From a virus, in IMG/VR virus record IMGVR_UViG_3300025151_000167, positions 1 through 32,391 of that record: a stretch of DNA of 32,391 nucleotides. One strand, given 5' to 3'. The position numbers and the translations under genes are program-made. Below the pieces are notes generated by a model, which worked only from the letters and a program-made list of their open reading frames with translations, was not told the origin of the DNA and made no database searches. This document shows, piece after piece, positions 3-26,400 of the stretch; the first letter of the stretch is position 1; each line of letters begins with the position of its first letter.

Positions 3-2930
3 TCGACAAAGTACTTTGGTGGTAAAGGTCATCATAATACTCTACAAAGAAAGTTGGATGCTGATATCAAAGCGATTGCAGACGCAGGTGAGCATCTATA
101 CAGGATGCTTGGGCAAACTCCAGAAGGTAGGGCTCAACTTGCTCAGATATTCAACCCCAATGCTGACCACGAAACAGCGGCTGCTAACATGCGTATGTGG
201 GCAGCAATGTCAAATGATTTTTTACAAAAGGCACCCGAAGATAGTCACGACATCATGACGCTGGGTAACACGAAGGTTGAAGTTAAAGGTCAATCAAAGC
301 CGACTACAGACTTTGCTACGGGTATGAAAACTGCGGTTTCTAACTTTGGTAATGCAATTGGTGCTAAAAATGTATTTGATTATTTTCGTGCTTTGGATGC
401 TATTTCACAAATACAGAACGGCGTTATGATGCAGGCTGACCCTGAACAAGCACAAGCCTTGATTGAACAAGGAGAAATGTTTAATCGTCAATATGAAGAT
501 TCGCTTATGGATTCACTTGGTTTGGATAAATCTGATAATAGATTGCGACAAACGGTAAAAGATTATCTTGACAATACTCTACTACCCAGACTTAACGAAA
601 ACAAACCTATGCCTTCTGTTATGACAGGTCGACAATTGTTTAGTCAAATGTATCCTGATATAGACATCGACGCTATGCTTGCAGACATGCTCAATCGTGA
701 ACGGGTAAACAAACCTAATGTCAAAGACTTCGTTAGAAAGGTAGGACAAATATACAATACATTGGGTAGAAAAGCAGAAGAGAGAAACCGACAAACTGGT
801 ATCGGTTTTCAACTTGCACACAACTTAGATGATAGGTTTGAAGAAGATTTGCATACGAGTCGTTCTAAATTTTCAAGAGATTTGAAGGGTAAAGGTAAAG
901 CAAATGCAAGATATTTAGACGACCAGCAAAATGCGATACAGACACTCAATTCTTTAATTACTAATTTTTCAGATGTAGAAGTTCCACAGGAATTCACTCA
1001 AACTAAATCCGGTCTTGGTCGAGTTAAAGTCGGGCCAAACGGTCACGACACACATACCGTCAAGAGCCTGTATAACTCAGCCGGTTTTAGACATGAGTTT
1101 GGAGACGACTTTTCACCTAATTTCAATTACTACATAGGTTCTGACGGTACTCCTAAGATTACTATGGTTAACCCCAATGAGGATAATACTCAGGCTTTAG
1201 TCCCACTGACTAGTCACTTTTGGGACAAGATGATTTCAGTAGCGGCACCTGCTTGGCAGAGTTTACTTTACGGCCCTGAGCATCAAGAAGCAAGACAATC
1301 GTTGGCTATAAACGAAAGAAGAGCCCCTCAGTTTAAGTCTGGTGAGTTTACTAGGACACTCAATCAAAAGCCTAGGTCGGTTACTAAGTCTGACATCGGT
1401 CTAGCAGACTTAACTAATCCTGACATTATCAGAAAAGACTTGGGCCCGGAAGTCCCTACACTACAGCCGATGCACCGTATCTTTGAACTCGACGACCTTG
1501 AACATCTGCGTGGATTTACAGGCGACTGGATAGTTTCTGTCATGCCAGAGGGTGAAAGAGGGTTTGTTAAGAAAGACGATGACAAAGTTACATCTCCTAC
1601 TTTCGATTTATCAGATGAAGACAAAAAGAACTTCAAGAAAGTAACAAATGAAGATTATCATGTAGATGTCATAAAGACAGAAGACGGCTACTATATCTTT
1701 GATATCTTAGAATACGAAGATAAAGAAGTTCACGAAATCACGATTGACGATAGAATCAAAATACTTAGAGGTGCTATGGAAGGTGTAGGTAATATTCACT
1801 TACCAAGTGCTAGTGACACTCGACTTGCTGATGATGCAGGTCTTAAGTTAGCAGTAGATGATTTACAGAAAGACCACGGCTCAGTATTACTTAGAGACGC
1901 TAAGTCAACATATATGGCTGGTGAACTAAGACATCCTAAGTGGGTCATGCTCAAACCCGGCAAGGATGTAGTACTAAGAGTATTAGATAGAAGAGGTAAT
2001 GGACCTTACACATATCGTTTAGGTACTGGTCCGATTACTCAAGCCGAAAAGATAGGCAATCGAGCAGTAGAGTCAGAAGGTGAAACCTATATGGATGTGG
2101 GTGTTGCTTTCAATAGTTCAGAAAAATACAACAAAGGTGACCATGTTAAGGTCAACGCTGCTAATGTAAGTAAGGTAGAGTCAGTAGACGAAGAGACTGT
2201 TTACACTTTGACTGGCTCAGAAATAATTGGTGAAGCAGAAGGTGAAGGTCTTGTCAGCAGAGAGACACTAGGTTTACTTGCCAAGTCATTAGATTCACAA
2301 TGGCTTTGTGAAGTTCACAGGGCTAAGAGTGGCATCCGAGTAGTAATGCCACAAGGAGATGTAGTTTACAAAGCCACAGAATCTCAAGGTCATTGGTCGG
2401 TTCATAGTCCACTTTCTTCTAACAGTTATTTGGTCAGACTATCTGAAAGCCAACGAGCGTACTGGAGTCCCATAGCAGGTGCATTACTCAAGGCTAATCT
2501 TGATATTGCAGAATCAGATAACGAAGACAAAGCAGAAGTTCATGAATCACAAGGTGACGGTAAGCCACTTATACCTCCTAAGAAAATAAAAGACTCCGAA
2601 TGGAAAGATAGAGAGAAACGGATGGTAATGGTCAAAGGTCTACAATTGATAGAGAAACTTCTGAAAAGCGGAGTAGGCGCTGTAGGTCAATCGAGCACAG
2701 GTACTATGGGTCTGGGTATAGACTATGCCACGCCTATAGAATCACCCATGGGTCCGACGAACTTACACGATGAGAAGACGATGCCGGACTATGACAACAA
2801 AAAACGACCCGGAGAAGACTCTTCTATAGAACCGGAAACGGAAGACCAAGAGGATAAAAAGCACTTGGTCATACCTGTATCAGATGGTGTTTTAGAGGTA
2901 GATTCAGACAAGGCCGTTTTCCATACTTGA
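3..2930 (+). CDS. Large head-module protein with degenerate ATP-dependent DNA ligase domain, 5' partial
   Basis: The frame is open to the left edge, so the TTG at 54 is probably internal and the gene is cut off; residues here count from that TTG. Residues 1 to about 460 are mostly charged and helical and I do not recognise them. From about 466 to 725 the order of motifs matches an ATP-dependent DNA ligase: a TLQPM lead-in, motif I at 497-502 (MPEGER where KxDGxR is expected), FDIL at 549-552 followed by a DDR, motif IV at 608-615 (HGSVLLRD), motif V at 630-635 (WVMLKP), then an OB-fold-like stretch. The catalytic lysine is methionine, the motif IV glutamate is histidine, and one motif V lysine is methionine, so ligation activity is unlikely. 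The C-terminus is acidic. It lies directly upstream of the prohead protease, where a portal or portal-associated protein is usual, so a virion or packaging role is inferred. Confidence 0.75.
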   Translation, partial: STKYFGGKGHHNTLQRKLDADIKAIADAGEHLYRMLGQTPEGRAQLAQIFNPNADHETAAANMRMWAAMSNDFLQKAPEDSHDIMTLGNTKVEVKGQSKPTTDFATGMKTAVSNFGNAIGAKNVFDYFRALDAISQIQNGVMMQADPEQAQALIEQGEMFNRQYEDSLMDSLGLDKSDNRLRQTVKDYLDNTLLPRLNENKPMPSVMTGRQLFSQMYPDIDIDAMLADMLNRERVNKPNVKDFVRKVGQIYNTLGRKAEERNRQTGIGFQLAHNLDDRFEEDLHTSRSKFSRDLKGKGKANARYLDDQQNAIQTLNSLITNFSDVEVPQEFTQTKSGLGRVKVGPNGHDTHTVKSLYNSAGFRHEFGDDFSPNFNYYIGSDGTPKITMVNPNEDNTQALVPLTSHFWDKMISVAAPAWQSLLYGPEHQEARQSLAINERRAPQFKSGEFTRTLNQKPRSVTKSDIGLADLTNPDIIRKDLGPEVPTLQPMHRIFELDDLEHLRGFTGDWIVSVMPEGERGFVKKDDDKVTSPTFDLSDEDKKNFKKVTNEDYHVDVIKTEDGYYIFDILEYEDKEVHEITIDDRIKILRGAMEGVGNIHLPSASDTRLADDAGLKLAVDDLQKDHGSVLLRDAKSTYMAGELRHPKWVMLKPGKDVVLRVLDRRGNGPYTYRLGTGPITQAEKIGNRAVESEGETYMDVGVAFNSSEKYNKGDHVKVNAANVSKVESVDEETVYTLTGSEIIGEAEGEGLVSRETLGLLAKSLDSQWLCEVHRAKSGIRVVMPQGDVVYKATESQGHWSVHSPLSSNSYLVRLSESQRAYWSPIAGALLKANLDIAESDNEDKAEVHESQGDGKPLIPPKKIKDSEWKDREKRMVMVKGLQLIEKLLKSGVGAVGQSSTGTMGLGIDYATPIESPMGPTNLHDEKTMPDYDNKKRPGEDSSIEPETEDQEDKKHLVIPVSDGVLEVDSDKAVFHT
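1449..2230 (+). other. Pseudo-ligase nucleotidyltransferase plus OB-fold-like region
   Basis: This part of the first gene encodes the ligase-like region. Visible landmarks are MPEGER (1542-1559), FDIL (1698-1709), HGSVLLRD (1875-1898) and WVMLKP (1941-1958). Spacing and order follow archaeal ATP-dependent ligases, whose corresponding motifs are KxDGxR, FDxL, EGxxxK/R and WLKxKP. The glycine and arginine of motif I, the FDIL core and the second lysine of motif V are kept. The covalent-intermediate lysine is not, and no alternative KxDG occurs nearby. This was judged by eye without an alignment program. Confidence 0.65.
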
Positions 2931-2961: not shown

Positions 2962-4359
2962 ATGGCAGCGATGGCTTCACTGAGAACTTCCCCCGTCAAC
3001 CACGGTGGAACTATTAGTATAGTTAAGGCTGACAACGACCTCGTAATCGCTGGATACGCATCTGTTGAGATGGTAGACAAGCAAGGAGATTTGATTACCA
3101 GAGGTGCTTTGAAAGACGCTTTTGGTGACTTTATGAAAGCAGATGGATTTAGAAATGTCCAACTTGCTCACTCAAACATACAAGTTGGAAGCGTTATTCC
3201 ATCTTATACTGACTCTGATGGCAGAGTTTGGAAATCCGGTGTCGATGACGCTGGTATGTTCGTAGTCATTAAACTACGAGACGACATAGAAAAGGCAAGA
3301 GAAGTTGCCAAGGAAATTCGCAAAGGAGCCCTTAGAGGTTTCAGTATTGGAGGACAAGCATTCAAGAGAATGCGAAAGAGTGACCAACAACACGGTGACT
3401 ACACAGAAATCTCCAAACTGGAACTACACGAGGTCACAATTTGTGAGAAAGGTATTAACCCGGAGGCGACATTCCGTATATTGAAGGAGGACACAAACAT
3501 GAACGATGATAATGTATTGAATGAACTGTCAAGCACACTAGATAGACTGAACGGAAGACTCGACGCTATGGAAAAAGGCGAAATGCCAAAAGAAGCAAGA
3601 GAGGCGCTTGAGGCATCTCAAGACAAGAAACCCAAAAAAGATGAGGCGGAAGAAATGGCTGATGATAACGAAGATAAGAAAATGTACGGTGCTGAGCACA
3701 AAGGTGAAGGAGACATGGAAAAAGGATATTCCGATGTCATTACTACTGATTACCTAAACTGGATGGAAAACACTCTGAAATCAGCAGGTGTTGACATCGC
3801 AGGTGCAAGAAACCACTTCGACAATGTTTCAAAGGCTAACCTAGGAAGCACACCAGAAGCAATCGGTGACGGTGCAGACTACTTCGCTGGACAAGTTAAG
3901 GGTCGAGCACAAGAAGGTGGCTCTCCATCAACTAATGCAATTGGAAAACTCAACAGCGGCGGAAGCGGTGCAGTAGCAAAAGGCTACCTACACCCAGACC
4001 TAGTTACTGCATCTGATTTGGAAGCAGCATACGAAGTTTACAAAGCAGCATCCCTAGAAGAACAATTCAAGGGTAACCTTGGTGCTGTATTTGCTGACAG
4101 ACTAAACAAAGAACTTACCTCAGAAGCACAAGCAAGAGAAGCCGCTTCCTTTGACGCAAGAACACCACTTGCTAACATCGAAAAGGCTCTGGCTGACTTG
4201 AGCGACAGAATTGATAACATCAGTAAGTCGTCTGATTCAGTAGAAGCAGCAACAATTAGAAAGCAACTTTCCACTGTCGAAGTACCTTCGACACAGGACT
4301 TAGCAAGCATGGACTGGTCAGAAGTCCATAACCTTGCTGGGAGCGTATTTCATAACTGA
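2962..4359 (+). CDS. HK97-type prohead protease fused to scaffold-like domain
   Basis: This 465-residue protein starts with a phage prohead serine protease domain (residues about 17-175) that would cleave scaffold and capsid protein during head maturation. Visible family features are the GYASVEMVDKQGDLI strand, a probable catalytic His70 in QLAHSN, a probable catalytic Ser128 in GFSIGG, and the ELHEVTICEKGINPEA strand that closes the domain. From residue 180 the sequence changes to a predicted coiled coil, a highly charged Lys/Glu/Asp segment, then an alanine- and serine-rich helical tail to 465. That resembles a scaffold or delta domain. The gene sits directly before the major capsid gene, the standard order. 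The ATG at 2962 is used; an ATG three codons later (2971) is also possible. See the internal start at 3499. Confidence 0.85.
   Translation: MAAMASLRTSPVNHGGTISIVKADNDLVIAGYASVEMVDKQGDLITRGALKDAFGDFMKADGFRNVQLAHSNIQVGSVIPSYTDSDGRVWKSGVDDAGMFVVIKLRDDIEKAREVAKEIRKGALRGFSIGGQAFKRMRKSDQQHGDYTEISKLELHEVTICEKGINPEATFRILKEDTNMNDDNVLNELSSTLDRLNGRLDAMEKGEMPKEAREALEASQDKKPKKDEAEEMADDNEDKKMYGAEHKGEGDMEKGYSDVITTDYLNWMENTLKSAGVDIAGARNHFDNVSKANLGSTPEAIGDGADYFAGQVKGRAQEGGSPSTNAIGKLNSGGSGAVAKGYLHPDLVTASDLEAAYEVYKAASLEEQFKGNLGAVFADRLNKELTSEAQAREAASFDARTPLANIEKALADLSDRIDNISKSSDSVEAATIRKQLSTVEVPSTQDLASMDWSEVHNLAGSVFHN
3484..3490 (+). promoter_or_regulatory. Internal Shine-Dalgarno for a nested scaffold start
   Basis: AAGGAGG lies inside the protease gene, eight bases before an in-frame ATG at 3499. 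The match to the archaeal/bacterial anti-Shine-Dalgarno is stronger than at the gene's own start, and it falls exactly at the boundary between the protease and scaffold-like parts. Confidence 0.55.
3499..4359 (+). CDS. Candidate nested scaffold protein from internal in-frame start
   Basis: Initiation at the internal ATG would give a 286-residue protein made only of the scaffold-like region: MNDDNVLNELSSTLDRLNGR, then a charged linker, then a helical C-terminus. In phage lambda the protease gene C and scaffold gene Nu3 are nested in this same way, with the scaffold made in larger amounts from an internal start. The support here is the AAGGAGG at good spacing and the domain boundary at the same codon. 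Use of the start in vivo is inferred. Confidence 0.5.
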   Translation: MNDDNVLNELSSTLDRLNGRLDAMEKGEMPKEAREALEASQDKKPKKDEAEEMADDNEDKKMYGAEHKGEGDMEKGYSDVITTDYLNWMENTLKSAGVDIAGARNHFDNVSKANLGSTPEAIGDGADYFAGQVKGRAQEGGSPSTNAIGKLNSGGSGAVAKGYLHPDLVTASDLEAAYEVYKAASLEEQFKGNLGAVFADRLNKELTSEAQAREAASFDARTPLANIEKALADLSDRIDNISKSSDSVEAATIRKQLSTVEVPSTQDLASMDWSEVHNLAGSVFHN

Positions 4360-4396: not shown

Positions 4397-5530
4397 ATGG
4401 CAAGAAATTACATGAGAACAATCAATGACATGGAGCGTTACTACTACGGTGCTGGACAAAGTATGGGATACTCATACACTGGTTCAGAACTATTGAAGGC
4501 TGATGCACCATTGCTAAGCACAACAGCAGGAACATACCAAGCAATCTACGGTAGAAAAGTTTGGTCACAACTAAACCAAGAATTCAACGCATTTTCAATT
4601 CTACCAAAGAAACCATGGGACAGAAGTGGATGGAGAGTAGTTACTGCTAAGCCTTCCAAGACTGTTGGTGGCGGAATTGCAGAGAACGGTACACTACCAG
4701 ACACAACCAAACCTACTTTCCAGAATGTTGCAGCAAAGCCTAAAACTATCGCTCACTCATTCGATATGTCTGAAGTAGCAATTTTCCTAAATGACAAAGA
4801 CGACGGTCTAGGTGACATTCGTTCAGTCTTGAAAGAAGAGATGGGTAAGCACCACGCAGAGCACATCAACGACATGCTAACTGAGGATGTAACAACTGTA
4901 GCAGGTAACGACTTTGAATCACTTGACAGAATTACCACTGGTAACAACTCAATGACATCTGGTACTCACTACGATGCAGGTGACGAAGACATTTACTCCA
5001 TTGACAGAAGTGCAGCCGGGAACTCTTGGGCATTTGCTGAGGATTCTGCTGACAGCGGTTCTACTAACAGAACTCTATCACTTGACCACTTAGATGAGAT
5101 GTTTAGACTTATCTGGACTCGTGGTGGAAATCCAAAGGTCATGCTAACTGGATATGACACCTTGATGAGAATACAACAACTTCTACAAAGCCAACAAAGG
5201 TTCATGGAAGAAAAGAGAGTAGTTCCAACATTCAACGGTGTAAAAGGTGTTCCGGGTATGGAAGCAGGTTTCATCGTAGCAACTTACAACGGTGTTCCAA
5301 TTATCCCAACCAAGGAGATGGCAAGCGACGGCATCAGCAGAATTTACATGCTTGATACTGACTACCTATACTTTAGCACTGCAAAGCCAACACAATACTT
5401 TGAATCTGGTATCGAAACCGGAGACCCATTCGCCATTAACCGCCTCGGTCAAGAGGGACTTTACCGAACAATGGGTGAAGTATGGACAACTTTCTTCGGA
5501 GGTCAAGGTTCTATCCGTGACTTGAAGTGA
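4397..5530 (+). CDS. Major capsid protein, HK97 fold
   Basis: This 377-residue protein follows the protease-scaffold gene and has the length and layout of HK97-type major capsid proteins, which assemble into the icosahedral shell. The N-terminal about 45 residues, with several Tyr and Gly, would be the N-arm. A segment rich in W, P and K (KVWSQLNQEFNAFSILPKKP) leads into the E-loop and spine region. The C-terminal half has typical P- and A-domain patterns, such as LDHLDEMFRLIWTRGGNPKVMLTGYDTLMRIQQLL, PGMEAGFIVATYNGVPIIPT, and DTDYLYFSTAKPTQYFESGI near the end. Its Asn codons favour AAC (12 against 5 AAT), as in a highly expressed gene. The assignment rests on position, length and pattern, not on a computed match. 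Confidence 0.85.
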   Translation: MARNYMRTINDMERYYYGAGQSMGYSYTGSELLKADAPLLSTTAGTYQAIYGRKVWSQLNQEFNAFSILPKKPWDRSGWRVVTAKPSKTVGGGIAENGTLPDTTKPTFQNVAAKPKTIAHSFDMSEVAIFLNDKDDGLGDIRSVLKEEMGKHHAEHINDMLTEDVTTVAGNDFESLDRITTGNNSMTSGTHYDAGDEDIYSIDRSAAGNSWAFAEDSADSGSTNRTLSLDHLDEMFRLIWTRGGNPKVMLTGYDTLMRIQQLLQSQQRFMEEKRVVPTFNGVKGVPGMEAGFIVATYNGVPIIPTKEMASDGISRIYMLDTDYLYFSTAKPTQYFESGIETGDPFAINRLGQEGLYRTMGEVWTTFFGGQGSIRDLK

Positions 5531-12865: not shown

Positions 12866-15400
12866 TTGGTAGACGCTGGAGAGAGAATGCCTGTTCGCCT
12901 TGTTCAAGAGAACGGTGAAACTATCTCTCTCGATGCTACCAGTATTGACATAGTGGTTGAAAGGCAAATTAGTAACTTCGGCATACCGTTTTTCGATGCT
13001 AAGAAGTTGGGTATAGATTTGAATCAAGCAGCAGTTGCTATAGAAATACAAGGTGTATTTGCTGACGACACTGGTCAAGAAGAAACCAGTAGCGCCGTTG
13101 CGTTCTTTGACTTCTACCAACCTCAGCAACTGTTTACACCTAAACCCGATAGCGGAGGCGGCGGAGGCATGACAGGTGGGCTAATGCCATCTGCATTTAA
13201 CACTCAAGGTGCTATGGGAGTATCTGCCATAGGCGGTACTGGTCTAGGTAGTGGAGGTGGCTTTTCCAGCGGCTTTGGTGGTGGTTTCGGTGGAGGTCTA
13301 GGTGGTCACCCTACATCTTCTGGAGATTTGGGTAATCGTATATTACAACATTGGAGTAAAAGATACATCGACTTACCTGTAGGTTATTGGGTGGAGAAGG
13401 CCACTTTGTTAGATAATCCTGTCAAGACTGGTTTGCAATTATGGTTGAAGCCCGAAAACATAGTCGGTAATCCAAACACATCCGTAGAAACATGGAATGA
13501 TGCTAGTGGTAACGGGAGACATGCTACTCAGTCTACTGCCGGGTTAAGACCGTTCCATAGAATTGCATCTACTGGAGGGTTGGCCGAAGTGGTTTTCAAC
13601 GGCTCTGATAGATTAGACATACCTTACAGTGCATTTCTAAACTCCGAAGAATTTTCTATATTCGTTATCGCTAGGAACTTCTCTACAGGTGTAAAGCCTA
13701 TTTTAAAATCCGCTACAGGTGGTTATTCATTATCCTTCGACCAAGGTAACACAAGAGTTGTGGCTGGCTGGGATGAATCTGGTGTCGCTGATACACAAGC
13801 GTCTAGTGCCGGTAGCAGCAGAAGTTTTAGCACTCAATTGATATGTTACACGATGGATGACACAAACGCTAACTCAGAAGCAGACACTGTAAAGATATAT
13901 TCTCGTGGAGAAGAAGTTGGCAGTAAAACATCAGGCGTTGATTACACACCTGCTGGTAGCGGAGTTCTTTACTTAGGTCACGATACTAGCACTAGTTTAG
14001 ACGGCGCTATACAAGAAGTGTTGATTTACAACCGAGCAGTTACTACCGATGAGCGAAACCAAATAGAAGGTTATCTCGCTCGAAAATATGGTATGCATCT
14101 CAAAGAAGGCAAGTATGAGGGTTTGGCTCGATATTCTTACGACAACAAACACATCAGAGTAGCGTTTGACAAAGAGTTAGTCGGCTCGGTCAAAGAACCA
14201 CACGGTTTTCTTAATCAACGCAGGAAGACTAATATGACAATTGGTTCTATATCAGCGGGTGCAACTGTTTTACCTGTAACTGGAGGTGACCCAAGAGAGT
14301 GGTTTGAACTTACAGAAAATAACCGCCCTATGAGAATAGTGTTCAAGGAAAGCGATAGTGCTGCAAATTACCGTAAAACTAGCGGCGGTCAAGAATACTT
14401 TGGAGAAGTTACTGCTATTACTTCTAGCCAAATTACAATCAATCTATCACAGGGTAATGCTACTCACGCTACCGGAGACCAAGTGTGGATAGAGCCGTTT
14501 AGTTATGGAGATGCATCTGGCTTGAATGGTAACGACTTGTTTCCTGTAGTAATTATACCAGTAAAGAATGCAGATACTTACGAAGCCAACGCTTTGCCTG
14601 AAAAGGCTGTAGGGCCTGAGTTCCCTTCCCATCAAAATGGCGCTACTAGAGATAGTGGCGGAGGACTGACAAGAACCGACGAATACATTTCTTACCTGTT
14701 TTCTAAAGCAATAACTAGTGACTACATCACTTTAGGTAAAGCGGTCAATGCGGCTGGTAATCTTACTCTTGATAAAGCGTTTACTACATCTATCGGTCAA
14801 TCATCTAGTGGTCACAATTCAAGAGTTACAGTTACTCAGAGTCATGAGACATCTTTGGGATTGTTAGCAGATACAATAAACACTAACTTAGGAGTAGGTC
14901 AAGCACCTGTAATCGAAGGCTTTTCTGGTGGCAAATCTGGTAAGAAAGTCAAAAGCGGCGGCGACAAAACGCAAGACATAATCGGTATACTGGCTAACAG
15001 TAATAACTTTTTGAACTTCCAACCCAGTAACAGAATTGCTAAGGTAATAGATGTAGCAAGTGGCTTTGTCCAAGATACTATCTACAACACACCAGAAGCA
15101 CAGGGTGATTATATCAGAGGTATACAGATACCCTATAACTCGCTGGCTACAAGAGGTAAATCCAATCTTGATTCAGAAGTAGCACAAAGAAACTTTTTCT
15201 TGACTACCGAAGGTAATACTAGTGACAAGTTGTCATCAATAAATAGCGTACATGCATCTCGCTTGTTCTCACATACAGCAGAAGGTCATTTCAAAAATGG
15301 CATAAGCGGTATAATCACGGATTTCAATGTTCATCGAGAAGCGGAAATGAAAGCCTATGATTTTAGTTTGAAATTCATAGCGGCTGATATAATATTGTGA
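12866..15400 (+). CDS. Distal tail/baseplate protein with inserted LamG lectin domain
   Basis: The 844-residue frame starts at TTG 12866, but ATG 12887 (MPVRLV) aligns better with the start of the next gene's product (IPIRLL) and has GGAGAG before it. Residues 8-95 form an N-terminal tail-type beta domain shared with the next protein. Residues 96-148 are a glycine-rich linker. Residues about 187-412 are a clear LamG/concanavalin-like domain (LQLWLKPENI, WNDASGNGRHATQ, FNGSDRL, IQEVLIYNRAVTTDERNQIE). The C-terminal region, with DKTQDIIGILANS and RGIQIPYNSL...RNFFLT, recurs in the next protein. The pair probably form the distal tail or baseplate, with the lectin domain binding host surface glycan. 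Confidence 0.6.
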   Translation: MVDAGERMPVRLVQENGETISLDATSIDIVVERQISNFGIPFFDAKKLGIDLNQAAVAIEIQGVFADDTGQEETSSAVAFFDFYQPQQLFTPKPDSGGGGGMTGGLMPSAFNTQGAMGVSAIGGTGLGSGGGFSSGFGGGFGGGLGGHPTSSGDLGNRILQHWSKRYIDLPVGYWVEKATLLDNPVKTGLQLWLKPENIVGNPNTSVETWNDASGNGRHATQSTAGLRPFHRIASTGGLAEVVFNGSDRLDIPYSAFLNSEEFSIFVIARNFSTGVKPILKSATGGYSLSFDQGNTRVVAGWDESGVADTQASSAGSSRSFSTQLICYTMDDTNANSEADTVKIYSRGEEVGSKTSGVDYTPAGSGVLYLGHDTSTSLDGAIQEVLIYNRAVTTDERNQIEGYLARKYGMHLKEGKYEGLARYSYDNKHIRVAFDKELVGSVKEPHGFLNQRRKTNMTIGSISAGATVLPVTGGDPREWFELTENNRPMRIVFKESDSAANYRKTSGGQEYFGEVTAITSSQITINLSQGNATHATGDQVWIEPFSYGDASGLNGNDLFPVVIIPVKNADTYEANALPEKAVGPEFPSHQNGATRDSGGGLTRTDEYISYLFSKAITSDYITLGKAVNAAGNLTLDKAFTTSIGQSSSGHNSRVTVTQSHETSLGLLADTINTNLGVGQAPVIEGFSGGKSGKKVKSGGDKTQDIIGILANSNNFLNFQPSNRIAKVIDVASGFVQDTIYNTPEAQGDYIRGIQIPYNSLATRGKSNLDSEVAQRNFFLTTEGNTSDKLSSINSVHASRLFSHTAEGHFKNGISGIITDFNVHREAEMKAYDFSLKFIAADIIL
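13424..14101 (+). other. LamG / concanavalin A-like domain insertion
   Basis: This segment of the preceding gene encodes the jelly-roll lectin domain. The strongest markers are the WNDASGNGRHATQ loop, FNGSDRLDIP, and the closing EVLIYNRAVTTDERNQIEGY helix. It has no counterpart in the paralogous gene that follows, which indicates an insertion between shared N- and C-terminal parts. Confidence 0.75.
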
Positions 15401-15409
15401 GGTGAGAAA

Positions 15410-17425
15410 ATGGCGATACCAATCAGACTATTACTTGCTAACGGTAAAGACCAGATTGATTTAGTAGCCCAAAGTATAGATATGTCAGTTGACAGGAAAG
15501 CCAGCGCTTTTCCTACTCCCGATAACATGCTCAAGCGATTCGCAATAGACACTAACACTCCTCAAATACAGATAGAAGTAAACGGTATATTCGTTGATGA
15601 CGAAGGAGTGAGTGCTAATTCTGATGGTATACTTGAAGCGGAGCCTATGAGAAGCGCAATCAATTTTGGTGCATTTTTCCCTACTAATTCATCTTTACCT
15701 CTATCTAATCTACATCATGGTAACATGGCTGGTTTTACGGGTAGTAGCAGACCGGCTTTTCGTAGTAATGTAGGAGTGTTCGTAGATGATGAGTTTAAGT
15801 CAATAGACACATTAAGTAAAAATCAATCAAGTACTTTGACTGTTCAAGCGTTACCGGGCTCTATTTTAGAATTTGCCAGTGACGATACTGCTCAAATAAA
15901 TGTTAACCCCTTTATGAATTTTAAATCTACAAATAACTTTTCTACCTCTGTTAACCAAATAACGGTTACAAGCACACTTCCCGGCTCAGCCCAAGCCGAA
16001 GATAGAGGCGGCTTTGAAGCAGGTGACACATTAATAAAAGAAGATAATTCTCTTATAGGTGTTGTTCAGTCTGTATCCGGTAATCAAATCACCTTTACTG
16101 GTAACTTAAGCACTGCTGTGTCAACCAATGATAAAATATTTATGTCTTTGCAGGTTTTTAACCATATGGGTAATTTTGTTGGACATATTAAGTATATGGT
16201 TGACGACTCAACTGTTGCAGATGGTGATAAAGCAACTTTTACTATAGAGTTGTATGATACAAACGCCAATTCAGTTTCGGAAAATGCTTCTATATTTATA
16301 GACAGACGACCAGATATATCTGAAAGGTTTAGAAACCAAACAATAAAACTGATACCTAGTCTGTGGTTGTCCAGACCGGATAGAGTTTATGGACAAAATT
16401 CTGTTACTCATGATACTTCTATGGACAGTAATCTTACAAATGTTGGCTCTTCTACAATGTCTACTTTAACGCCAAGAATAGGTGTAAGGTTACAGTTTGA
16501 CTTAGGTAGCCCTTATACTAACTCTCCTACTATAGTTCAGAAGGCGTTTGATAACTTTAGCCTTGATGCAGCACAAATGGATGCCATAATCAAGTTACCT
16601 ATTAAAGATATACACACAGTTGACAATCCGGCTTTAGAAATGGCTAATAGAGTAAAAGCGGCTTTTGAATTAAGTGGAAATGTAGTAAGAAGTGGCTCAT
16701 TTATGCCGGGTTTCACTTTACTTTCACTCACGCTTGATACTGGTAAAACTCTAAGTGATGCGTTCAGAGTAGTTCAAAATGGTACTATACTAACTTTTGA
16801 ACAAGTATATTCACCCCCAGAACCTATTTTGCACCCTAGTATGATAAGTTCAGATTTGAAAGCACTTTTTAGAGAGCAAGAATTTCACAGCGCTAGTACT
16901 ACTCCGGTAGAGTCAAGAAAGTCAGCAGGTGATAAGGCGCAAGATTTGATAGGGCTGGTTTCTAATTCAGACCGAACAGTAGACTTGTTGAGAGGTATAC
17001 AGATACCTTACGACAGCCTGATACAAAGTTCTGGGGTAACTGGAGTAGCCCGTAATTTCTTTTTGACTTTCGGTGAAGTGCCCGTATTGGACAAAGGTTC
17101 AGCGAGTAACAATCGCCCCGCTTCTCAAAAAATGGACAATTTACTTTTGAACATGACAGGGTTTCAAACAGACGACAGTCCAGACAGTTGGTTTGAAAGA
17201 AAATTAAAAGCAATTACTCCTAATGAGATAGAATCTCTATTTGGCTTTTTGGTCGGTATAGGCAAGGATGCAATATGGCTGACTCTGCAAACTAATATTT
17301 CTAGTGTAAATGAAGGCGGTATTAGGATAATACCGGAGAAACTTCATGTGCGTTATGATGCTGGGAACAACTACTACGCTTACAGTTTGTTATTGTCAGC
17401 ATCGGACTTCGTAATAGGTGTGTAA
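15410..17425 (+). CDS. Distal tail/baseplate protein, paralogue of the preceding gene
   Basis: This is a 671-residue protein with GAGGTGAG before its ATG. The N-terminus (IPIRLLLANGKDQIDLVAQS, later IQIEVNGIFVDDEG) aligns with the start of the previous product (MPVRLVQENGETISLDATS, IEIQGVFADDTG). The C-terminal part shares DKAQDLIGLVSNS and RGIQIPYDSL...RNFFLT. It lacks the glycine linker and LamG domain. Residues about 200-250 carry the recurring beta module (GDTLIKEDNSLIGVVQSV). Likely duplicated from one ancestor, the two may form successive rings at the tail tip. The exact baseplate role is not determined. Confidence 0.6.
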   Translation: MAIPIRLLLANGKDQIDLVAQSIDMSVDRKASAFPTPDNMLKRFAIDTNTPQIQIEVNGIFVDDEGVSANSDGILEAEPMRSAINFGAFFPTNSSLPLSNLHHGNMAGFTGSSRPAFRSNVGVFVDDEFKSIDTLSKNQSSTLTVQALPGSILEFASDDTAQINVNPFMNFKSTNNFSTSVNQITVTSTLPGSAQAEDRGGFEAGDTLIKEDNSLIGVVQSVSGNQITFTGNLSTAVSTNDKIFMSLQVFNHMGNFVGHIKYMVDDSTVADGDKATFTIELYDTNANSVSENASIFIDRRPDISERFRNQTIKLIPSLWLSRPDRVYGQNSVTHDTSMDSNLTNVGSSTMSTLTPRIGVRLQFDLGSPYTNSPTIVQKAFDNFSLDAAQMDAIIKLPIKDIHTVDNPALEMANRVKAAFELSGNVVRSGSFMPGFTLLSLTLDTGKTLSDAFRVVQNGTILTFEQVYSPPEPILHPSMISSDLKALFREQEFHSASTTPVESRKSAGDKAQDLIGLVSNSDRTVDLLRGIQIPYDSLIQSSGVTGVARNFFLTFGEVPVLDKGSASNNRPASQKMDNLLLNMTGFQTDDSPDSWFERKLKAITPNEIESLFGFLVGIGKDAIWLTLQTNISSVNEGGIRIIPEKLHVRYDAGNNYYAYSLLLSASDFVIGV

Positions 17426-17426
17426 T

Positions 17427-20400
17427 ATGAGTTTGCTAATAGATGCTGGTTATGGACTGAAATTCAACGGTATAAGCGATAGCGTCTTAGTTCCTACAAA
17501 CAATACTAATCTGCATGGTGCACAAACCAAAGAAAGAAAAAGACTACCTACTTCTATGAGTTCTTTTACTTTGGAAACTTGGTTCATTCCTGATTCTGGC
17601 GGTACTATATTTGAACAAGACAATGTTATGAGACTTACAGTAGGCTCTCCTAGTAGTTCAGCACCTGCTTTTTTTGAGGTCAGATTGAGGAATAAAAATA
17701 ATGGTAAAGACAATGTATTCACACTTAGCAGCGCAAAGGCTGTAAACAAGGCAAACGGGTTACTTGCTTACTGGGATGGTATCCTTTTCCCAACAAACAA
17801 TTCTACTATCAACTCTGCAAACTTAGGTTCAGATGTCGATACTAATGATGTTACTGCTTTTTCTGAGGGTTCCAGAGAGTTGCTGAATGTTACTGTTACA
17901 TTCGACAGAAGAATACTCAGCATGCATGTCAATGGCGATTTACTCGTCGAACAAGTATTAGAAGAAGAACACGAACTAGTGCCACAACAAAGTCAAATGT
18001 TTTTGGGTGGTAGAGGTGGAGACTTTAGAGGTACATTAGAAACCATCCATTTGTCTGCTAGCGCTCTGCCTTCTGGTAGACAACAATTCGCACCAATTAA
18101 AGGTGACAACACACTTGGTCTATGGCGATTTGAAGAGCCAATTAACCCTATTGCTATGAGAGTAGTTACTCCTTCGTTGTCTGCTTCGACGGCTACGACT
18201 TCTACTATAACAGTAAGTACAACTGTTGCGAAGGATTTGATTGAAGAATTGACTGGAGAAAGAAGAGAAGTCTTTACTAATTTTCAATTAGCACCTTGGA
18301 GTGCTGGTAAATATTCTTACAAAGTCTACACTGCTACTTCTAGTAATAACAGAGAATTAGAAAAAGTACCTTTTAATTTAATAATAAATCCATTGGGTTA
18401 TGATAAAAAAACAGGTAAGCCTACTAACAAAGCCCCTGAAAGAGTAAGGTTACTTTCTATAGACCCGGCTACTGGGCAAATAAAAGTTTCATCTATTCAT
18501 TTAGATTTTTCAGCAAATCCTACTACTGGACAAAGAGGACTACTAATGGCTCATGACGCAGGTGAGTTCGTAGTAGTAATAGGTGATTGTATAGTAGACG
18601 GTGGTAACGGCAATGTATTCCAACCACAAGGTAGCGGCACTCAGTTTTCTCAAAGACAAGGTCAGGTTATAATTGATGAAAGTGACTTTGAAAATCATGG
18701 CATTATGTTTTCTATGAGTATGGCAGTTGATTCTCACGAATACAACCAGTTTTCTGCAAGTACGACTAACATGGGCACTGACTTCTTAATTGGCCATACA
18801 GGTAGGCACATTCTCAATCATGTCAAAAGCCATCCGTTTATGGGTCTACTTCCACCACCTGAATCGCACAATGTCGAAAAGAAATTAGATGCAGGTAGTG
18901 ATGTAGTCAATGCCACCTTTATGCCTCAATTTGGCAACATAAAAGATGTAGTGCCAGTTAATAGCATAATCTCTAGTTTTGATACTCACGGTACAATTCC
19001 TGTAAACGACTTAGTCTATTCATCTGTTGTGTCTACTTTTGTAGAAAACGGCATGTCTGATATAGACGACACTAAAAGAGGATTATTAGCAATAGGTGGA
19101 CCTCAGTTCAACACTGAACCTTTCCTATTGAAGTCTATATCTTCTACAGATGCTAAGAGCGATATTAAAGCGCTGATACCTTCCAACGAAGATAGAATAG
19201 CAACATTAGTTTTACCTGAGTTAGAAACTTACAACTATGCACCTTTTGTACAAATACACTATAACGCAATAGACCGAACAGGTGAACATTTTGATGTTGG
19301 AGCCACATCCAGATTGACTGCGAACATTTCTACTGCCACGCTTACTTTACAAAGCGTAAAATCGTTTGGAGTAGACGGTGCTGTAATACCAGCCAGTCGG
19401 ATATCAATAGATGGAGAGACACCTTTTACTTCTTATACCAACCAAACGGCTACAATAGATTACAGTACCAAGACTATTGTATTTTCTTCCACCCCTAATA
19501 ATAGCGCTTTTAATACGGCTGCTGTAAACAATGCTATAGTAAAGTTGTCAGATAACTTTCCTAAATTATTAATTAACAAAATCTTACCCGATGTCAGTAC
19601 AATAGTAACAGGTACAACTAGTATACTTGACTTGATAAGAACATCTGCTAATACTAAGCCTCTAACTTTAGTTTCACCCGGCGGTGTTATGACATTCAAG
19701 ACCCCTAATTTATTTCCATTTGACGATGGTCAGTTAGAAGGAGACGATTCAGAAGGATTAGTTGGCGAAGGGCAACTAGATTTGAGTCTGTGCCCGACTA
19801 ATTATCTACCTAGCGTTGCTACAGATGCACCTCAGACTACGCCTAAAGGGATAGGATTGGCTCAATCAGAGTTATCTAACAGGTCTTCTGTATTTCATAA
19901 AGTACTTGTCCGTAATCATTTCGTCAAATCTTCTGATTACGATGAACTAGCCAATGTAAAATTAAGGAAAACGACTAACGGGACTAGGCAAAGACTAGGT
20001 TTGACTTTCAGTGCAGACTACGCTGCTTCGACTTCGACAGCAATGAATGTAACAGGTGGTACGGTAAATGACACAATAGCAGTCGATGATGTAATTTACA
20101 AAGCAAATGGTAAGCAATTGGGCACAGTTACTGCTGTCACCAGTAGTAGTATTACCATAGGTGCAGGTACGAGTGACGCTGTGGTAAACAAAGACGAACT
20201 TTTCTTAGAACCTCAAGCGGCAGGTAGAGGTAGTACAAACCAAAGTACAGTGGTGCATGAATACTTTGACATCATAGAGCATAAGTCAAGGAACAATGTT
20301 ACTAGTTTAGTCATTCAGCCTACAGATAGGAGTCGTTTCGCTCAATTATCTAAAATGATAAAAGATACAGAAATGAGAAACCATATCAGTATTGAACACC

Positions 20401-23400
20401 TTATGTCGAGAGCAAGAGTGCTTTCTTTTGGAGATGACAGCGATGGTAACACTGTACTTAGGGCACACGGTTTGATAAGCGATATAGCATCCTCAACTGT
20501 TAGTGTCAAAGGCTCAGCCAGTCCAGATTCTCACATTGTCAAAGAAATCATGCCGGGTGCCCCGGTAGTGACAATGACTCTTGGCGGTGGAGGTCAAGGA
20601 GCAGTCAACACAAAGGAGACTTGGGACCCAGCCCCACTCAGCAGATTGGCTTGGAACACTCGTAGAGACTGTCAAGCGAAAGTCAATGCTACTATCAGTA
20701 TAGGTACAAAGAGACAGATATCAGTGCTACCTTTGAACAACAATGCTGACGATTTACAATCTTGGGGAACTTATTGTTTCCCTGCTACAGGAAGAGTTTA
20801 TCTTGAATTATCAGGTAACCAAGGAGAACAAAAACAGTTTGCCAGTGCTGAATATACCAGTAAGACAGGTACTTTATTTTCATTCAGTAACAGTACTGGA
20901 CTTGTAGGTTCAGGTACATTTGTACTAGCAGACGGCTCAGAAGCAGATTCATTCAACGCTTGGGTGACCGCTACTGGAATAGATGAGACTAGCGTATTGC
21001 ATGTTGATGACAAGTTTAGCGAAGAGTCAATGTGTAATGATGGGACAACAATCAACGACAGATTGTTCCAAAGCCTAGATACAGTTCAGCATGATTACCA
21101 GTTAGGTAGTCAGTACGCAAGTACTCGTGCGCTTGTTGAGATACCTCTATTCGAGGAGTTCTTCTTCGACAACCCAGACAAGGGTATTTTCCCCGGCCCT
21201 GATAACAGTATGAAGTTGCACATAGACGCTACTCATACAGCGCATTCTTGGAACCCTAATCCAGTCGGTAGAAGAGCAGATGCTATCTCTCCTCAAGACC
21301 CTGAGATTTTTGGTCCGTTTTCTTACACTATCCAAAGAGGTACGCACCGTAGTGGTACCAAGGTAACCAGACCTTACGATTCGACCAACTATCGAGTATA
21401 TGTCGAAGATGCTAATATTTTCCCTATACCAACAGCGCCCCCTACAGAAGTTGCTAATTTAGGTGGTCAGGCTAGATACCGAAGAGCATTTTTGCCTAAC
21501 GGAGAATGGTTTACTTACAGCGCTAGAAACACTTCCGACCACTATCTTACCGTAGTCGATTCGGGAGACGACCACGCATTCAGTGAAAACTTCTTGCGAG
21601 ACATCAGAGTTGGAGCACACATTACTCCTGCTCCGGGCTATCAGGATATGAATTACAACAGTATTGCTGACAATCCGAGTTTGATTAGTGCTGGTTACGA
21701 AAGAAGAAGGTCATTTTACTATGACCGTTCCAATGTCACGACACAAGGTGGCAACGCTGACTACGGTCTAAAGCAGTATGTTAGCGCTATCGAATTAAGG
21801 GCTGGTCCTTCAACCAACCCTCATTTGCCAAAAATTATCAGCAAGCGACCTAGAGCAAAGGCTGTTCTAGTTACTGGGAGCCCTGCTACTTCTATCAAAC
21901 TAGACGATGCCAGCCTTTTCCCTATCAAAAGTCCTGACAGCGATTACAATTTTAGAGTCGCTTGGGTAGATTCCAGTGGAAATGTAAAGAGGGGGTTCTA
22001 TAACAATAGGTCAGGAAACACACTGACCATTACCAGCCCTGACACTGGCTTTACACCTTCGGCAGGTGACGAAATATATGTTGAGGACTTGTACGCCACT
22101 TCTGCAAGCACTTGGCCAAAGGTCAAAGAGACATTCCTAAACAGGGCTTGGGCACATCCTTACTGTCCGGGTGGACTTAGACAAGGTGATACAATATGGA
22201 TGAATATGCACTATACCAATCCTCACGCAGTTGAAGGTTTGTTCTGTAAGAGTAGAGGAACGCTCAATGAAGCAGAGGTTTGGAAAGGCTTTAACGGCGG
22301 AGTAGGAGAAGTAGATGCTAATCCAAGAGATAGTATTCCATTGGAAAACTTCCTCATCGGAAACAGTTGTATAGAAACGGCTCAGAATTTAGTACAGCAC
22401 ATTAACAAAACTATTGAACTAAACTACTCCGAAGTTGTAGGAACTTCAATAACCGCACCAGTTGTTGCTTACCTAGACCCTTATCAGTGTACAGATGGCT
22501 TTGTTAGAATATTACTCTACGATGTAGGGCATGACCGTGAATTTATCGCATTCCAAGATTTACACATGCAGGTTCAATCAAGCCCTGCCGCTGCTAGAAT
22601 TAGCGAAGAGGATGCTAACAAAACAGGAGTTGTAAAGAATACTGTCACGGATTCGGGTACTCAATTAGATGTTGCGGCTGGTTTCCTTAGTCAAAACAAG
22701 AGAATGAATACTACTACAAAATCTGATTTTATCGAGTCAAGTTACGCCCACGCATCTGATTGGAATGAAAGTTACTCTGGTGCAATATCGGAACATAATG
22801 TCGGTGGACTAGCAGATATAGTCAAAGACAGTTATAGTAGTAGAACAACTCCATCAGTAGCGTCAGCAGACGAAGCGTTAATTCAGCACCAAGTTATTGA
22901 CGATACGAGTAGAGAATCTTCTACTTTCTTTGATACCCCAGATGGCACTAGAGTCATACCTGCTTTCTTAGCCATGAAAGGTATTAGGAACTCGGTATTA
23001 GATTTAACTTCACACACCGAAGCAAGATTGCAGTATCTTGACCAATGGACTGATATGGATTTTGTTAGAAGACTGACCCTAGATTTAGGAGAGGTTGCGC
23101 TCAAAGATGGTGTGACCAACATAGAATCGGCTGCTAGAGAAGTAGTCAGACTAATCAACCAAGCGGGCGCAAGAAATGGTAAAACACACGCCCGTAGACC
23201 AAACGACCAGTTCTTAGGTGACAGTTCTAAGTTCGACTTGTCCAGCCCCGGACCTAAATCAAACGCTTACAGCACTAACATTGACCCAGCGGCCACACAT
23301 CTTCATGCTGATTTTGCTGCTACTGCTTCAACACACGACCCTGCACCTTTCTGGGACCCAAGTAAGGCGTTTTCAAGCCATGACCGTGGTACTCACATGG

Positions 23401-26400
23401 GATATGTTCGTGCCCATCTTGGAAGAGTCGTTCTCGACTCAGAAGATAATCCGGGCTTTTCTATAGTAATACACTCTACTATTCCGGGCGCTGCTGGTCG
23501 TAATTTCTGTACTTGGTTGGACAGTAGTAAAGCACAGAGTCCTTACAGACCACAGTTCTTGATAGGTCACGGTGGTCGTTTCAGAAACTATTGGTGCCAG
23601 CCTGATGAGATGACTGGAGAAAATATGCACCCTGCGCCTATGCCTATCAACAGATTTGGTAGACCGTTTGCGCCTATCACGACATTGAAAGAGCATTTAC
23701 CTCCAGAAAATCCTAGTGACCCATTCTTGAACAACTTGAATTTCGGACCAGATAGAACTGATAGTGCAGGTGCATTAGTGTCTGCTAATACAGAAGTTGT
23801 CAGCGGAAGGAATAGTAATACTTTACTCAATGAATCGTTTGAAACCAAGAGTCCTGCTTCTACTTTAGTAGACGGACTCAGGATAGGTACAAGAGCCAAG
23901 GCTAGAATTAACTTTGGTGGCTTGACCCAAGCAGGAGTACCCGGTTGGGCACCTGATGTAAGTAAGTGGGGCTTTGATAATGATGGCACTCAAAATCATT
24001 TCCTATCTAAATACGGCAACCCATCAAATGTATCAGATGCTATGACAGTCAATACTGATGGTAGTAACGACGGTTACATTCCAAAAGCAGATATGAAGAA
24101 AGAAAACATAGGTAACAATCCACTTTACGGCTTTAGGTTCGTCGACCACCGAGGAGACAATCATACAATCAGAATGGTTTACAGACAGTTTGGCCAAAGT
24201 TTTGCTAACGACAATACATACTTGCCTCCTACACTTGATGAAGAAGTTATCATCCATTTTGATGACAGAGATGTAGGTCAGGGTGGTTTTACTATCGGTA
24301 GGCATATGGTCGGTACTGGTGAGGTGTGTGGAGAAAAGACAGGTGGTAGCACTCTAAGTAAACTAAAAGGTAATCTTTGGAACAACTACCCTGCTCCGAT
24401 TGTCGGAGTAAAAGTCGCTACAACTTACTCAAGTGGTACAATGGCTGTGGTACTGGATGCGCCTTACGATACGAGTGCGCCAGCGGTAATGCAAACTCAT
24501 CCTGACATACTGGGTTATCTTGGATTTCCAGAAAGTGGTATGTTCCAACTTTCCACGCAAAGCGGTGTCCAAGGTCTAAATTTCTACTATACTAGTAGAA
24601 CGCACAACGATTACAGTGGTACTCACAAGTTCTTTGGAGTCATTGGTGGCTCTAGCAGTCATACTAATGGTGATTGGTTTATGAGTCCTAGACTCAACTT
24701 TACTTCTTTGCTGACCGACGAAGTTATTGCCGCAGCAGTCGAATATGCTATCAACATGCCTGATTCAGGATTAGAAGGATTGGATGTTACGAGTTTCGAT
24801 TGTACTAACATGTTCGCACCAGACGGACAAACTTTAGGCGAATGGGGAGTAAGCCCTACCGCTATTAGAATTCATACCAGAGCAGACAGAAAGGTAGCCT
24901 TGAGTAAATTATTCGAGGCGACAAGAAGCAAAGACTGGGGATTGTTAGAAGGTGCTTCTACTGATGCAGTTGTATCGAGTAAGCACACTGGTGGTCTGAG
25001 CACAGGCGAAATAGATGCAGGTACAAGGTTAGATATCGGCTACATCCCTAGCACTGTATTACATATTACTACTAAATACCGAGGTTCTAATGCCAACACT
25101 GCTACTCCTATATTAGTTGACAGTCAAAACAACATGGTCGATATTACCACTTGGCAAAGAAATCTCAGAGGGGAAAACTTCACCGATGTAGCAGGTGACC
25201 ATATTATTCCAAGGGTAGATGCCCCTTGTCTCGAAATACACAATATTACTTCTACTGAGGTCCATGCTGCTAGTAATGAGTCTTGGGCTTTGTTTGGTAA
25301 GTTAGCATGTGACGATACTAACAGTTGGGGTCAACCATTTTTGATTTGGTATAGTACTACTGATTGGGCTGAGGTTAGAAGCAAGCCGGGTACATCTAGC
25401 GTTACTCATGTAAACATCATCGCTAAGTCTGCAAACTTTTCTCCTAACAACCATGATGTTATATTCAAGTCATATAGTAGCGACGGGTACAGTAAGGAAA
25501 TAGATGGTGTCAGAAGGGCGGGTAGTAAGAAAGCCAGTCCTTTCCTTTATTTCCGTGGCGGTAGAGACAGCCCTGACCACTGGGTACCGCTTTACTTCGG
25601 CGGCGGATTCAGCGGTGCTGTTGTAGATATTAACGACGGAACTCAAAATGATTACAGTGAGTTCTACACGCATCCGTATTCTTCTGGACCGACAGGTAGC
25701 GCAGGCATGCAGAATATAGGAGAAGTGGCTGGCTCTTATGCATTGTTAGATACCAATGCTATGTTGGCAATGTTCCCCGGTACACCTTATCTCGACCAAC
25801 ATCGAGGACAGAATAATCCACCTTTCTTTAACCAAGATGCTCTGTTGACATTCGATATGACAAAGACTGCTAATAACAAAGTCACAGGAATAGATTACAC
25901 TGACGGAACGAATACCGTCAACGCAAACATCCCTAGCCCTATTGTCTTGAGATTTGCTCATCCTCACGCCAGATATAGTGCGACAGGAGATACTACAGAC
26001 CATACCACCTATATGGTATTTGGCCCCGGTCAGGCTTTTCCGCACAATACAGCGGCACATGAACCACAGGGCTCTCGTATAGTTACACTGGGTAACGGTT
26101 ACAGTGCAGTTCCTATTCACTTCAACAGCGACGCTACTAAAGATACATTCTTACCTAATCAATTGGCCAACGGCGACATAACAGAACACAGTGGTTTCAA
26201 CAGAGGTAGTGCTGAGGCTCACCTGCCTATGACTACTTTCTTCCAGAAAAACAATGAGACTGGGTTTAATTATGTCATGAACTGGCAACCTACCAAAGGT
26301 TTCCCATCAGAAGATGCAAGTGCCACTAAAAACTACAATCAAGTTAACACTAAGGCTTTCTATTACGACGGTAGTGTAGCCACCACCGCTAACTTACCTA

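Follow-up and report, generated by a model that had tools for sequence, protein, structure and literature searches.

Magroviruses rank with the most abundant viruses of the sea and have been described with a near-complete replisome, including an ATP-dependent DNA ligase. This ligase is counted among the magrovirus replication genes (Aoguangviridae/Apasviridae) in ICTV profiles and in a 2023 survey (PMC10768690, PMC12999244, PMC10160649), and the "ATP-dependent DNA ligase" gene was placed beside the prohead protease (PMC7318539). The annotated gene is cited as a replication enzyme, whereas the pseudo-ligase sequence described here argues against the formation of any ligase-adenylate.

The ligase I family (PF01068; Thermococcus 4eq5 and 3rr5; human Lig I, III and IV) shares with the pseudo-ligase the nucleotidyltransferase (NTase) and OB domains, the upstream PM motif, the Gly and Arg of motif I, motif IIIa and the SxYxxGxR...W segment. 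Unlike this family, the pseudo-ligase has lost the catalytic Lys, the motif III Glu and the first motif V Lys in every member, and it sits at the C-terminus of a head-module protein of ~1,900 aa. The re-use of dead nucleotidyltransferases for binding is known in kind; in snurportin-1, a dead nucleotidyltransferase fold without the catalytic Lys is re-used to bind the RNA cap. Unlike the pseudo-ligase, however, snurportin-1 is a eukaryotic nuclear import adaptor for capped snRNA, with a capping-enzyme-type origin and no viral context. Ligase-less jumbo phages possess a stand-alone ligase DNA-binding domain, likewise a non-catalytic ligase piece in a virus without a ligase, which was proposed to recruit the host ligase (PMC7824862). 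Yet this piece is the DNA-binding domain rather than the NTase-OB core, and it does not lie in a head-module protein. No precedent for an inactive ligase in a virion or capsid module was found in the open-licence literature. A first-pass annotation of this DNA, made from its letters, had known of no well-described precedent; this stands as regards a ligase in a capsid module, while snurportin-1 is a precedent in kind.

Gene neighbourhood of the pseudo-ligase

The whole stretch of DNA analysed here ("the window", 32,391 nucleotides) is a 32.4-kb piece of the structural module of a tailed archaeal virus. Its features around the pseudo-ligase are the following.

3-2930, + strand: giant head-module protein, C-terminal ~975 aa; open frame with its 5' end beyond the window's left edge
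1467-1955, + strand: ligase-type NTase domain, predicted to be catalytically dead (PF01068, PDB profile matches, AlphaFold2 model, Foldseek)
1956-2243, + strand: OB-fold domain (AlphaFold2 strands at domain residues 164-261); missing in a sister lineage (L241, L242, L248)
2244-2510, + strand: C-terminal domain conserved among relatives (LIRLSESQRPYW), present with the pseudo-ligase even without the OB domain
2511-2927, + strand: C-terminal tail conserved among relatives, KSGVGAVG..GLGIDYATPIESP.GPTNL..KTMPDYD
2962-4359, + strand: S78 prohead protease (PF04586, E 1.9e-10; phrog_23555)
4397-5530, + strand: HK97-type major capsid protein, MCP (PF17236; phrog_24667, E 4e-56)

In relatives, the complete frame of the giant protein spans ~1,800-2,000 aa (1954 aa in L005, 1913 aa in L018, and others), and the window holds its C-terminal half. 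In a 96.8-kb relative (G002), the terminase, the portal (PF04860, E 7e-11) and three small genes all lie upstream of the giant protein. The components of the structural module of a magrovirus (order Magrovirales) were thus all found, namely the portal, the large protein, the S78 protease and an HK97-type MCP related to that of Druskaviridae, and the same records carry PolB. The window MCP shares 31-34% identity with those of haloarchaeal Druskaviridae viruses, a family named as kin of magroviruses, which infect marine Poseidoniales (PMC8651126, PMC10768690), archaea that are abundant in the ocean. The PF04586 match confirms that the ligase-like region adjoins a prohead protease, as had been noted at first pass. 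The gene position suggests that the giant protein is a virion (head) protein or an ejected one; a functional assignment was sought for its N-terminal ~1,400 aa and none was obtained.

Druskaviridae have large multi-domain proteins in the same slot, between a head-assembly gene and the prohead protease. In HVTV-1, this is gp115 (KC117377.1, 68622-72563; L157 6623-10564), a protein of 1,313 aa with an N-terminal zeta-toxin kinase and a C-terminal ADP-ribosyltransferase. Unlike the magrovirus giant protein, gp115 has no ligase domain, and hhalign comparison of the giant protein with HVTV-1 gp115, gp113 and gp119 and with vir519_00022 revealed no homology. The enzyme folds present in the slot before the prohead protease differ from one virus family to another.

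Further downstream on the + strand, the window encodes at 12866-15400 a putative virion structural protein with a laminin-G/concanavalin-type lectin domain (PF13385, E 7e-11); cyanophage KBS-S-2A and Rhodococcus phage REQ2 have distant relatives of this protein. At 17418-32390 (+ strand), a frame that is still open at the right edge spans at least 4,991 aa. It gave no Pfam match over its first 4,000 residues and probably encodes a giant protein of the tail or for adhesion.

A ligase fold in the giant protein

Bases ~1467-2243 encode the NTase and OB fold of an ATP-dependent DNA ligase (residue 1 of the domain numbering is at base 1452). Taken alone, the window matches PF01068 with an E-value of 2.5e-5 and 24.5 bits, under the Pfam curated cut-off of 26.2 bits, a score that would leave room for a chance resemblance or a misalignment with no ligase descent. 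Yet several relatives pass this cut-off with up to 33.3 bits, PF01068 matches 20/20 diverse family members tested (best E 8.8e-8), and the NCBIfam archaeal/eukaryal ligase model TIGR00574 matches 19 of these 20 (best E 1.1e-8). When the family profile was compared with the PDB, the archaeal (Thermococcus) ligase 4eq5 was matched with an E-value of 3.4e-6, and the rest comprised more DNA ligases and snurportin, plus two weak matches with E >0.8. The snurportin-1 m3G-cap-binding domain (PF21974; PDB 1xk5) gave weak profile matches over motif I, with E about 0.02, and in the Pfam search PF21974 matched 5/20 members (best E 0.007).

The AlphaFold2 model, built with 52 relatives, has a mean pLDDT of 82 and exceeds 90 across most of the NTase core; an earlier model (A1; mean pLDDT 59, poor outside the core) was superseded by model A3. 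In a Foldseek search of the PDB, the best 50 matches were all DNA ligases (E 5e-11, probability 1.00). Global TM-scores against PDB ligases are modest (0.4-0.6), because the NTase-OB hinge varies among structures and the targets have an extra DNA-binding domain; no ligase DNA-binding domain was detected in the giant protein. The NTase fold with the ligase motif order is therefore present, as the first-pass annotation had claimed, and the structure prediction that it had proposed as a check came out in its favour. The OB-fold domain is predicted in the window and in most relatives, with one lineage lacking it. Moreover, one lineage of the family reads WYDGxR at motif I and often keeps the DG of motif III; with such an intermediate in the family, descent from a ligase can hardly be doubted. 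The profile matches, the predicted fold and these intermediate sequences thus refute a chance resemblance, to which we assign practically no probability, and the sequence and the predicted structure together establish descent from an ATP-dependent DNA ligase. A viral protein of 827 aa in BFVD (A0A516LT18), with 25% identity to the pseudo-ligase across 384 columns and a Foldseek E-value of 3e-17, may be a more distant member of the family.

Active-site motifs

Motif counts were taken over 94 distinct domains. In the window, the motifs lie as follows.

1542-1559, + strand: motif I, MPEGER in place of KxDGxR (HMM alignment to 4eq5; the catalytic Lys is Met, codon 1542-1544)
1665-1673, + strand: motif III, DVI in place of DGE, Glu lost (I/V/F/M in 94/94)
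1698-1703, + strand: motif IIIa, FD, retained (HMM alignment to 4eq5 LNLFDIL)
1878-1895, + strand: motif IV region, GSVLLR in place of EGxxxK (Glu position is Gly143)
1905-1943, + strand: invariant segment SxYMxGExRHPKW (ligase SxYxxGxR...W with lineage-specific E, P and K)
1947-1955, + strand: motif V, MLK in place of KxK (first Lys is Met166; second Lys kept here, variable in relatives)

The HMM alignment sets EIKYDGAR of 4eq5 against SKMPEGER, with a column of M or W opposite the catalytic Lys. Across the 94 domains this column holds M in 51, W in 29, Y in 8, F in 4 and L in 2, and Lys in none, which answers the alignment of homologues called for at first pass. At least 7 residue switches at this position can be placed on the tree, always among the bulky hydrophobics M/W/Y/F/L; the position is therefore constrained, though not by catalysis. 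Gly and Arg of motif I are invariant (94/94 each), and the Asp is kept in 26/28 of the WYDGxR lineage and replaced by Glu in 60/66 of the other lineage. The motif III Asp is retained in 93/94. The motif IV Glu column is variable, with E in 32, D in 27, K in 16 and other residues in the remainder, and a G follows the E in almost none. In motif V, every domain has L, M, V or I at the first Lys position, and 27/94 have Lys at the second. Within S-x-Y-x-x-G-E-x-R-H-P-K-W, the Ser, Tyr, Gly, Glu, Pro, Lys and Trp are present in 94/94, the Arg in 92/94 (otherwise Lys) and the His in 91/94. Measured against PF01068, the domain thus departs at the motif I Lys, the motif III Glu, the motif IV EG and the motif V KxK. 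The first-pass annotation had correctly read MPEGER for motif I and Met for the first motif V Lys; its His for the motif IV Glu was off by one, as this Glu aligns with Gly143 and the His precedes it, as in GHEGLMAK of 4eq5, and the loss of the motif III Glu had escaped it.

The neighbouring Lys of KWYDGKR in the second lineage was considered as a catalytic residue and rejected. It lies one residue upstream of the KxDG position and is K in only 28/94, and in both the HMM and the AlphaFold2 register the catalytic site is occupied by W or M.

Judged on these motifs, the ligase-domain protein should be unable to form a ligase-adenylate, and the magrovirus "DNA ligase" is very probably incapable of joining DNA, so that its job must be a different one. 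"Dead" here refers, strictly, to the inability to self-adenylate, since two mutants without the Lys, K273A of LigIV and K27A of the Chlorella virus ligase, can still seal nicks that are already adenylated (PMC6035275). Perhaps, then, the domain is a partial enzyme that retains step 3, the sealing of pre-adenylated nicks, with which the Asp kept by the WYDGxR lineage would agree. We consider such residual sealing highly improbable, because the motif III Glu and the first motif V Lys are lost everywhere and the motif I Asp in most of the other lineage; in the Chlorella enzyme, the activity of D29A on an adenylated substrate is undetectable or trace (PMC6035275).

Conservation, selection and domain loss

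Among 30 non-redundant full-length relatives, majority-residue frequencies reach ~0.6-0.9 over the domain and the C-terminus (from ~residue 1450), and column identity in the ligase domain is 0.67-0.89, versus 0.1-0.6 over most of the upstream 1,400 aa. The pN/pS ratio is 0.18 in the NTase and in the OB domain versus 0.46-0.65 upstream, these figures being ratios of raw differences with synonymous sites near saturation. Such sequence comparisons place the pseudo-ligase under strong purifying selection; it is not a decaying relic. The first-pass picture of an enzyme core kept in shape and stripped of its chemistry holds across the virus group, in a head-gene cluster.

In L241, L242 and L248 (records G037, G031 and G025), the OB domain is cleanly lost and the NTase is joined straight to the following C-terminal domain. 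Neither this domain nor the tail (2244-2927) gave a database match, and all lineages keep both; they may be the part that contacts the capsid or the portal. The NTase has an acidic composition (mean pI 5.25, net charge -10.6), the pseudo-ligase domain of the window's lineage is acidic, and a basic OB domain (mean pI 9.8) is seen in the WYDGxR lineage alone. Since the NTase is acidic, and the OB domain is basic in one lineage only and dispensable in another, a purely structural or protein-binding pseudoenzyme is a close rival to a nucleic-acid-binding module. It would act as a rigid block contacting portal, protease, scaffold or capsid, with no nucleic acid bound. The retention of the NTase and the following C-terminal domain where the OB domain was deleted would suit such a role, as would the new invariant residues E158, P162 and K163, which are not in ligases, and the bulky hydrophobic that always fills the Lys position. 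On the other side, the motif I Arg and the Arg of SxYxxGxR remain, and in ligases these two residues face the active site and the DNA. We regard the structural role as a serious possibility, though somewhat unlikely.

Possible role of the pseudo-ligase

Our best explanation, which we consider as a whole to have about an even chance of being right, is a captured ligase core with a dismantled site that serves as a non-catalytic binding module of a head or ejected protein; 1- a giant magrovirus head-module protein would have captured a LigI-type core (NTase and OB, without the N-terminal DNA-binding domain), 2- this capture would predate the divergence of the sampled magroviruses, 3- the active site would have been dismantled by replacing the Lys with a bulky hydrophobic and the motif III Glu and the first motif V Lys with aliphatic residues and 4- the protein would have kept the fold, along with a new conserved face (SxYMxGExRHPKW, PMHRIF...GDW). 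The protein would be part of the head, or be ejected with the genome, and its ex-ligase domain would bind most likely nucleic acid, such as a DNA terminus, a nick, or packaged or ejected DNA, with strand sealing left to the host ligase.

Among ligands, nucleic acid seems the likeliest, since a DNA-end enzyme has this fold and since the Arg residues that face the nick or the nucleotide, as in the Chlorella virus and human ligases, are kept. In LigIV, Arg278 (the motif I Arg) contacts the 2'-OH of AMP (PMC6035275). The acidity of the NTase speaks against DNA binding, yet it is weak evidence, as other proteins of the window are acidic too. With the OB domain deleted in one lineage, DNA encirclement cannot be the universal function. 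Moreover, K27A of the Chlorella virus ligase reportedly binds adenylated but not standard nicks; loss of the Lys might therefore reduce rather than preserve nick binding. The first-pass interpretation, re-use as a DNA-end or nick-binding module in packaging or portal function, is partly supported overall. A bolder version, which we hold to be rather doubtful, is that a cellular DNA ligase became, across a whole order of abundant marine archaeal viruses, a head or ejection module without catalysis that grips the genome terminus or nicks; the bulky hydrophobic at the Lys position would lock its pocket in a binding-competent state, and the virus would have no ligase of its own.

Ligase supply and the published magrovirus ligase

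The search of 52 virus records with PF01068 returned exactly one locus in 49, always in the giant head-module protein; in the remaining 3, judged from the MCP positions, the contigs end between the MCP and the ligase domain. Twelve of the records are 90-109 kb long and PolB is present in 12/12, so the replication module is represented in this search. The NAD ligase (PF01653) and RNA ligase (PF09414) families were absent from the records tested. A second, intact ligase elsewhere, which had been suggested at first pass as something to look for, thus found no candidate in the genomes tested with any of these three families. Beyond magroviruses, the pseudo-ligase domain and PF01068 were both missing from HVTV-1 and from two further archaeal viruses, the cellular genomes scanned contained no relatives, and tblastn against named phage records gave none that was convincing.

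Dependence on a host ligase bears on another reading, in which the domain is a counter-host decoy, delivered with the genome to occupy host nicks, PCNA or the host ligase and so block the processing of viral ends. The giant proteins in the same slot of related haloviruses carry other enzyme domains, as in HVTV-1 gp115, and in this they resemble effector-like ejected proteins. Yet magroviruses appear to rely on the host ligase themselves, so that blocking it would be costly; we find a decoy delivered in this way improbable.

The published magrovirus ligase is very probably the head-module pseudoenzyme, because it was placed beside the prohead protease and this is the only PF01068 locus in the records. 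If the only ligase-like gene is indeed this pseudoenzyme, the statement of a near-complete replisome with a ligase needs correcting, and the host must therefore seal both the Okazaki fragments and the genome ends. It would also stand as a clear example of the recruitment of a ligase core to a virion-morphogenesis cluster.

As a minor observation on the replication genes, PolB is split in two frames of 471 and 349 aa in two near-identical magrovirus records, G002 (73771-74918) and G003 (29184-30328).
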